Shown: piece by piece, positions 324-1,394 of the stretch
Numbering within the stretch: the first letter of the stretch is position 1
Layout: every line of letters starts with the position of its first letter
Assembly: GCA_028292245.1 (NCBI GenBank)
Contig: JAQGMS010000009.1
Coordinates: 1 to 38,714 of the forward strand
DNA: 38,714 bases
Source of the DNA: Ramlibacter sp.
GTDB taxonomy: Bacteria > Pseudomonadota > Gammaproteobacteria > Burkholderiales > Burkholderiaceae_C
Reading direction: 5' to 3'
The notes under the pieces: generated by a model
Told to the model about the DNA's origin: nothing
What the model saw: the letters and a program-made list of their open reading frames with translations, nothing else
Databases searched by the model: none
Translations under genes and position numbers: made by a program

Positions 324-761
324 ATGGCCAAGAGTTTCGATTTCCAGCACGCGCCCGGGCACCTCATCCGCCGCGCACACCAGCTTGCAGTGGCCCTCTT
401 CATGGAAGAGACCGGGGACTTCGACGTCACGCCGGTCCAGTTCGCCATCCTCAACGCGCTGATGGAGGATCCGGGAGAGGACCAGGTGACGCTGGCCGGG
501 AAGGTGGCCTTCGACGCGGCGACTTTCGGATCGGTGATCGGCCGGCTCGGCGCCAAGGGCTGGGTGCGGCGCGAACCGGACGCGAGCGACCGCCGTCGCA
601 AACTGCTATGGGTGACCGCCGAAGGCGAGCAAGCGGCGCTGCGGATGAAGCGCGCGGTCACCAAGGTGCAAGGCCGGATCCTCGGGCCACTGAATCCAGC
701 GGAGCGCCAGCAGCTTGTGAAGTTGCTCGGCAAGCTGGTTGCCGGGCACGAGGCGGGCTAG
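324..761 (+). CDS. MarR family transcriptional regulator
   Basis: This is a 145-residue winged-helix regulator, normal MarR length. The recognition region is about residues 55-78, followed by a wing (about 82-98) carrying the hallmark acidic-basic cluster DRRR at 89-92 (REPDASDRRRK). MarR proteins are homodimers that leave DNA when an aromatic ligand binds. Its divergent position to a flavin monooxygenase suggests it represses that gene and perhaps itself through the palindrome between them. The next gene rightward is convergent, so marR is probably monocistronic. The ATG at 324 is the start that gives a canonical N-terminus. There is no Shine-Dalgarno, so the message may be leaderless. The ligand is unknown. 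Confidence 0.9.
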   Translation: MAKSFDFQHAPGHLIRRAHQLAVALFMEETGDFDVTPVQFAILNALMEDPGEDQVTLAGKVAFDAATFGSVIGRLGAKGWVRREPDASDRRRKLLWVTAEGEQAALRMKRAVTKVQGRILGPLNPAERQQLVKLLGKLVAGHEAG

Positions 762-815
762 GTAGTCTGCGCGGCAGAACGTGTCGCTCGCGGGGGGCAG
801 GACGCGCGGGGGAGC

Positions 816-916
816 GGGCCAGGGACGCCGGGGTCCGGCTCCACTCGTGTCCCCCGTCGCCCTATGGGCTTCCTCCTCCTTGACCTCGCGGAGCCGGTCC
901 CCGGCATCCCTGGCCC
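816..916. repeat. large hairpin 1 of a paired-hairpin intergenic element
   Basis: Arms 816-841 and 891-916 are reverse complements at 24 of 26 positions. They enclose a 49-base loop that contains CGTCGCCCTATGGGC at 855-869. That 15-mer is the exact reverse complement of a segment in the loop of the second hairpin (1006-1020). The stretch 762-1094 lies between the convergent marR and ABM genes and holds no convincing gene: short open frames cross it on both strands but follow the inverted repeats. It could act as a two-way transcription barrier, a structured RNA or a mobile repeat. I cannot tell which. Confidence 0.8.
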
Positions 917-960
917 TTCGGGCGTGCGCAAGGTTTGAACTTCCCCACAGGCGATGAGGG

Positions 961-1057
961 CTCGGGCCGGCGGGTGCCCTGCGCCCGTAAGTAAAGGGGG
1001 AGTACGCCCATAGGGCGACGGAGGACATGAAGGGCGCAGGGTACCCGCCGGCCCGAG
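961..1057. repeat. large hairpin 2 of a paired-hairpin intergenic element
   Basis: Arms 961-986 and 1032-1057 are reverse complements at 25 of 26 positions, with a 45-base loop (987-1031). The loop carries GCCCATAGGGCGACG (1006-1020), the exact reverse complement of the loop motif of hairpin 1. Read on the opposite strand, hairpin 2 therefore has the same loop motif as hairpin 1 but a different stem sequence. The two units look like head-to-head members of one family with a conserved loop and a variable, base-paired stem. Confidence 0.8.
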
Positions 1058-1094
1058 GCCGCCCACGCAGCACATGGGTTTTCTGCCGCGCAGA

Positions 1095-1394
1095 CTAGCT
1101 CTTAGCCAAGAGCGTGAAGTGCTGCACTACCGGCGGGCTCGCGAAAAACGGTCCGATGATCGCGCGCCATTGCGGAAACAATGGCCCTTCGCGAAACGCT
1201 ACCGTGTGGTCTTCCAGCGTGTCCCAGAAGATCTGCAGCACGTAGCGCTCGGGCGACTCGATCCCCTTGTTGACCTTGTAGCCGCGCATGCCCTTGGCGT
1301 TGACCATCACGGTGGTGAGGGCGCGCTGGATCGCCTCGTCGAAGGCGGCCTGCTGGCCGGGCGGGATCCGGATCTCCGCGATTTCGAGAATCAT
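1095..1394 (-). CDS. antibiotic biosynthesis monooxygenase (ABM) domain protein
   Basis: This 99-residue protein is a single dimeric alpha/beta-barrel ABM domain. It shows the usual start MILEIAEIRIPPGQQAAFDEAI, a central YVLQIFWDTLEDH segment and a C-terminal FTLLAKS strand. Such small proteins include cofactor-free monooxygenases, heme-degrading enzymes and many of unknown function. It is the last gene of the leftward Rieske operon, ten bases after the ferredoxin stop, so it probably acts on a product or intermediate of that pathway. The family is clear; the reaction is not. Transcription would run next into the paired-hairpin element. Confidence 0.82.
   Translation of the reverse strand: MILEIAEIRIPPGQQAAFDEAIQRALTTVMVNAKGMRGYKVNKGIESPERYVLQIFWDTLEDHTVAFREGPLFPQWRAIIGPFFASPPVVQHFTLLAKS

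Follow-up and report, generated by a model that had tools for sequence, protein, structure and literature searches.

The window, by which we mean the whole 38.7-kb stretch of DNA analysed here, contains a marR-like gene (324-761, plus strand) and a convergent ABM-domain gene (1095-1394, minus strand), both named as in the initial annotation. Between them lie two large hairpins in opposite orientation, unit 1 (813-919, minus strand) and unit 2 (956-1063, plus strand), which score 71.2 bits (E 3.7e-12) and 74.9 bits (E 6.9e-13), respectively, with the covariance model of the family, matches that are partly by construction because both units are in the model's alignment. The outer-stem arms of unit 1 (816-842/890-916, minus strand) are 27 nt long and those of unit 2 (958-986/1032-1060, plus strand) 29 nt, each 93% complementary; a recount over 26-nt arms gave 24 pairs in unit 1 and 25 in unit 2, just as initially annotated. 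The two units are inverted copies of each other (73% identity across 71 nt), separated by a 36-nt linker (920-955) in the position that is taken by cargo in other copies. Both hairpins are enclosed by a further inverted repeat (760-779/1081-1100; 20 nt, 95%), absent from the initial annotation, whose edges overlap the stop codons of both convergent genes: the left arm (760-779) begins inside that of marR and the right arm (1081-1100) overlaps that of the ABM-domain gene. Its motif TCTGCGCGGCAG recurs at both ends of another copy in the same genome (L005). The window element has a GC content of 0.71 over 341 bp, and the fold of a 351-nt region is strongly non-random (z = -8.1 and -8.5 for the plus and minus strands, respectively; equalled by none of 100 shuffles in either case). 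No third hairpin of such size (arms of 26 nt with 24 or more pairs and a spacer of 40-55) occurs in the 38.7-kb window, and one mononucleotide-shuffled window contained none by the same arm and spacer criteria.

The 15-mer CGTCGCCCTATGGGC reported in the loop of the first hairpin lies at 855-869 (plus strand), and its exact reverse complement is confirmed in the second, at 1006-1020. In the window copy this 'loop' is not open, but consists of a conserved internal loop and a small inner hairpin (GCCC-ATA-GGGC) that is nearly self-complementary, which makes the perfect match between the two loops in part trivial. On the minus strand of unit 1, the 5′ side of the internal loop (TCAAGGAGGAG) is found at 873-883, the variable inner hairpin, including most of the 15-mer, at 857-872, and the 3′ side (CGGGGGACA) at 848-856. 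The corresponding parts of unit 2 on the plus strand lie at 992-1002 (TAAAGGGGGAG), 1003-1018 and 1019-1027 (CGGAGGACA), both sides of the loop being in a swapped form. A kissing-loop interaction, as initially envisaged, is not borne out by the family, since paired units can have inner hairpins that differ from each other (as in L001).

Across the family, the unit is about 108 nt long and comprises a long variable outer stem, a near-invariant purine-rich internal loop (consensus TMAAGG[A/G]GGAG ... CGG[G/A]GGACA) and an inner hairpin that varies between genomes and often also between the two units of one pair. The idea of a conserved loop thus holds for the centre of the unit but not for the 15-mer itself, which is mostly variable inner hairpin; alignment of the own-genome copies places the nearly fixed part in the purine loop around it. 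Compensating changes were measured on 49 aligned units, drawn from those parsed by the core motif (88 plus the two window units); the set is therefore partly selected by that motif, and copies inside one genome are not independent. With a 25-pair structure, 86.2% of cells were paired vs. 60.4% after shuffling, and the covariation score was 0.654 vs. 0.196 (sd 0.012), a value reached by 0 of 500 shuffles, with slid versions of the structure giving 0.09-0.13. The weakest of the five measures was the number of pairs with changes on both sides (24 of 25; shuffled mean 20.0, with 3 of 500 shuffles reaching it). Covariation was strong in both the outer and the inner stems. The initial description of two inverted units of one element with stems free to vary is borne out, and the search for further copies with a conserved loop and compensating stems, on which that description had been staked, found them. 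Units whose inner arm is longer (match length 133-135 nt) occur at L183, L348 and L353 in G026 and at L349 and L125 in G023, both being genomes with many copies.

Two letters of the core swap jointly. Among 173 parsed units of 192 distinct model matches (19 were unparsed), the combination was A/G in 158, G/A in 12, C/G in 2, A/C in 1, and A/A or G/G in none; many of these units were found by the A/G pattern and the copies are related, while the parser used for the 49 units allowed A or G at both sites. Core scans of IMG/VR agree with the joint swap, albeit in small numbers: 3 real hairpins in 16 A/G stretches and 1 in 21 G/A stretches vs. 0 in 40 A/A and 0 in 10 G/G stretches. Six units of G012 (L344-L347) carry a local core, AAAGAAGGGAG/CGGAATGACA, which is one base longer on both sides together; the remaining units of that genome have the common core. 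A two-tetrad G-quadruplex was at one point an attractive candidate for the core, which has four GG runs in its common form, and was ruled out by these six units, changed on both sides and without four GG runs.

Mispairs in the outer stem indicate which strand folds. In cells flanked by Watson-Crick pairs (164 distinct arm pairs), there were 248 G-T vs. 6 A-C combinations and 32 G.A or A.G vs. 2 T.C or C.T, with G-T wobbles making up about 13% of outer-stem pairs. The large excess of G-T over A-C identifies the purine strand as the constrained, folding strand. As the 3′ direction of this strand points outward at both ends of the mirror pair, no single transcript can carry both hairpins in the constrained sense. 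The inner apical loops of 114 distinct inner hairpins included 34 C(GNA)G triloops, 7 GNRA and 0 UNCG loops; the others were mixed (e.g. TTCA 7, CTTG 5), 80 of the 114 not being C(GNA)G. GNA and GNNA loops form very stable DNA mini-hairpins, according to the available part of PMC4686876. Strand and apical-loop evidence together give moderate support to single-stranded DNA over RNA; that recognition of single-stranded DNA is the mechanism itself is a more speculative proposal, to which we would give somewhat less than an even chance.

The family is dispersed both within and between genomes, in keeping with the mobile palindromic repeat that was among the initial suggestions. In the own genome, the exact 15-mer occurs at five sites, two of them in the window; by BLAST, there are close copies on contigs C9, C264 and C546, with less similar ones on C69 (two) and C260, and the pattern AAGGAGGAG-N(4-34)-CGGGGGACA has 8 matches vs. 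0 for the reversed control. Of 147 genomes, 40 have the core pattern and none the reversed control pattern; covariance-model matches were present in 41 of the 147 and in 18 of 399 genomes of the order, the own genome being included each time; weak matches may be missed in both genome scans. These model matches fall in three families (f1, f13 and f21). The range is patchy, with hairpins in 30 of 60 genomes of the genus by the model, and counts went up to 52 pattern matches in G020, with 44 model matches in G023. Copy numbers from the two model scans are lower bounds, as at most 26 candidates per genome were scored among the 147 genomes and at most 9 among the 399. In G020, nine A-type hairpins each have different outer flanks, and at three loci (L109, L110 and L112) a deletion beginning inside the palindrome has removed the partner hairpin. 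By eye, some hairpins of this genome (L105, L107, L109 and L111) have further short palindromic repeats beside them, of the GTCATTGCGG..TTGATCCGCAATC type.

Neighbouring hairpins separated by less than 600 bp were without exception in mirror order (-,+; n = 63); a few loci in this set were fetched twice, and without duplicates it comprises 60 distinct pairs plus 29 single hairpins (89 elements). Flanking genes, called by codon usage, were convergent in 28, codirectional in 12 + 13 and divergent in 1 of the 54 pairs with both sides called (three further pairs had one side uncalled). It should be noted that the loci used for order and place were selected for their matches or good scores and do not constitute random sampling.

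Orthologous sites lack the element. At the marR-ABM site, no hairpin was found in any of 29 relatives' loci, 14 of which keep the convergent pair while the other 15 show no marR; the 14 gaps measure 5-48 bp (five), 90 and 134 bp (two) and 831-1045 bp (seven). The seven large gaps (L146, L148, L149, L153, L156, L158 and L171) have an OmpA-type lipoprotein-like ORF, as judged by eye, where the window has the element. A cargo copy in G008 gave a comparable picture: it occupies 1,588 bp between mtgA and plsC (gene names by eye), and among 29 other loci, again with 0 hairpins, both genes are present in 12 (gaps of 8-47 bp in nine and of 677-996 bp in three), while no plsC was seen in the other 17. 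The flanks of these sites are too diverged for base-exact empty sites; a clean target-site duplication was not found, and the outer ends vary among copies. For the cargo copy of the own genome (L083), the sole close relative (G050, 79%) has a different left neighbour.

Accessory DNA, mostly of lower GC content, lies between the hairpins of some pairs; such interiors measure 0.3-2.9 kb and were seen in the own genome (L083), G008 (three), G056, G064, G003, G012 and G079. Interior GC was below both flanks in 9 of 11 cases and between the flanks in L175 and L089. The end repeats of L083, L084, L085 and L086 match at 81-95% over 111-207 bp and those of L175 at 88% over 165 bp, the ends in G012 and G079 being shorter or less similar. 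The three G008 elements have ends of about 150 bp in common and interiors without further BLAST match to one another. A defence candidate is carried by L086, with DUF4357 and a PADLOC match to PDC-S14 (5e-66; the PADLOC run left out L089). L176 encodes an ORC-CDC6-like ATPase next to an unassigned 290-aa protein with an R-x4-H stretch that we take to be HEPN-like, and L089 (2.9 kb) a PQQ dehydrogenase domain between ends that match over only 46 nt. Five others yielded no protein family. By eye, L344 presumably has a PhnB/VOC-like gene and L343 a DUF2306-like one, and we take positions 743-1206 of L175 (G003), between two hairpins, to be an IS30-like transposase fragment.

A transposase accompanying the elements was not found in a search that covered Y1_Tnp (PF01797) and RAYT. 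Y1_Tnp is present, mostly singly, in 56 of 59 genomes of the genus irrespective of hairpins, and 30 loci fetched with PF01797 contained 0 hairpins. RAYT relatives occur in 29 of 147 genomes, and within the genus in 11 of 30 hairpin genomes vs. 6 of 30 others (p = 0.25); 30 RAYT loci gave one single hairpin and no case with two flanking repeats. A RAYT or Y1 transposase was accordingly rejected as the mover, its presence not tracking the hairpins and its loci being nearly all without one. The one exception, in G020, has a truncated RAYT-like gene (L225 1064-1453) 95 bp from the single hairpin.

Taken together, these data make it likely that the hairpins form a family of mobile two-hairpin elements. 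We also think it probable, with somewhat less assurance, that the copy in the window is an empty example of a mobile element with two ends, each of them a structured hairpin, and with no transposase of its own. The strand running 3′ outward at each end would fold into outer stem, purine-purine internal loop and inner hairpin; an enzyme supplied in trans may recognise this folded purine strand, more likely as single-stranded DNA than as RNA, cut both ends and transfer the unit, whether empty or carrying cargo, to gaps where genes end. Most single hairpins would then be decayed pairs. A bolder suggestion, made tentatively, is that the elements represent an undescribed class of Burkholderiales transposable elements, with mirror ends read as folded single-stranded DNA via the purine-purine loop, interchangeable cargo including likely anti-phage genes, and an enzyme encoded elsewhere. 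If this were true, an abundant repeat unrecognised by the family libraries used would shape gene ends and carry accessory genes over a range of three families of one bacterial order, and covariation would have revealed, in a rare natural case, that folding of one strand is required in a mobile element. Recognition is a step that can be tested directly, by way of the strand bias and the A/G-G/A swap of the core.

In mobile insertion cassettes (MICs), end repeats frame passenger genes but no transposase. The elements described here likewise carry passenger genes between matching ends without a transposase, L175 having the IS30-like fragment seen by eye; unlike in MICs, the ends are structured hairpins, and we know of no parent insertion sequence with these ends. 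Bacterial MITEs (ERIC, Correia/NEMIS, RUP), as portrayed in the accessible portion of PMC2229807, are similarly non-coding and intergenic, with inverted-repeat ends and long stem-loops, and terminal inverted repeats without a transposase are also what we observe. However, MITEs are A+T-rich and about 100-200 bp long, whereas the window element has 0.71 GC over 341 bp, and as far as that portion goes they form one end-to-end stem, in contrast to the two separate hairpins, strand-specific fold and cargo found here; a TA-type target duplication was not seen among our copies, whose ends vary and whose empty sites are diverged. Caulobacter CIR elements, in the same portion of PMC2229807, resemble ours in that a single repeat contains two long arms with a linker between them, but our element is larger and has a different core, with GANTC in the core or inner hairpin of only 5 of 181 units. 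The 'Burkholderiales-1' candidate RNA motif, which in the available text of PMC2864571 is one main-text table entry without Rfam number, is likewise listed for Burkholderiales and, judged by this listing, may or may not be identical with the hairpin. No description of this two-hairpin element was recognised in the literature searched. The best Rfam model for the window, mraW (minus strand), was rejected at 33 bits vs. a cut-off of 50, and pairs the outer stem only.

The elements could also be outsized REP/BIME-type repeats that owe their mobility to a RAYT or another Y1 (HUH) transposase. REP dimers and BIMEs, insofar as the excerpts of PMC3733652 and PMC2817692 describe them, also consist of palindromic units in inverted pairs with short linkers, lie between convergent or codirectional genes, reach high and uneven copy numbers and leave single-unit remnants; inverted dimers near gene 3′ ends are what we see as well (63 of 63 in -,+ order; 1 of 54 divergent), and one RAYT fragment does lie 95 bp from a single hairpin. 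On the other hand, that hairpin is the sole one among 30 RAYT loci, RAYT presence is not significantly associated (p = 0.25), and neither GTAG nor CGTC was found within 12 nt at either end of any of 181 units. Our units measure about 108 nt vs. 20-40 bp for REP in these excerpts, with outer stems of about 26 bp vs. the 5-13 bp of known REP stems (PMC3733652, in the part available), and have a conserved internal loop instead of the tag, covarying stems, cargo genes and no RAYT association that we could find. We thus regard this origin as quite improbable. A role as RNA, in which the purine-strand hairpin binds protein or stabilises mRNA 3′ ends and spread is secondary, would account for about 13% wobble with almost no A-C, for the compensating changes and for the preference for gene 3′ ends (28 convergent, 25 codirectional and 1 divergent of 54). 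It is nevertheless unlikely in our view: the linker of empty copies appears too short to suggest an internal promoter, each convergent gene reads its nearer hairpin in the pyrimidine strand, which is the wrong one, 30 of 60 genus genomes have no match, UNCG (0) and GNRA (7 of 114) apical loops are absent or few, and no Rfam family reached its gathering score in 18 loci.

The two-way terminator between convergent genes that was initially put forward draws on the setting of the window, shared by 28 of 54 called pairs, but codirectional settings are almost as frequent (25 of 54), no T-run terminator was found at 600-1300, and the orthologous gaps seen have no hairpin. In the strand that would be transcribed first from either convergent gene, wobble pairs are almost lacking, the wobble pattern being on the wrong strand, and a terminator is accordingly scarcely credible. 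Single hairpins might instead insert independently, the genes between some pairs being normal chromosomal DNA enclosed by accident; hairpins without a partner are common (29 of 89 distinct elements), and L089, with 2.9 kb between ends matching over 46 nt, may be such a case. As a general explanation we find this very unlikely, given a mirror order without exception in 63, ends of L083-L086 that match over 111-207 bp, and an mtgA-plsC insert that is missing in relatives.

As to vehicles for the mobile element we favour, plasmid spread was set aside, the window element having no plasmid match, and phage spread was dropped as well, with IMG/VR giving 4 hairpins on 3 contigs among 87 stretches fetched by the core pattern, and 0 in 24 stretches fetched by the 15-mer. 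One 42.8-kb IMG/VR contig has a phage-like region, Mu-like by eye, apparently between two family hairpins (L279 442-556 and L269 7335-7445). The right edge of this region cuts the outer arm of the plus hairpin, and GTTGG is present at each edge, which is what a Mu-type insertion into the palindrome would be expected to produce.
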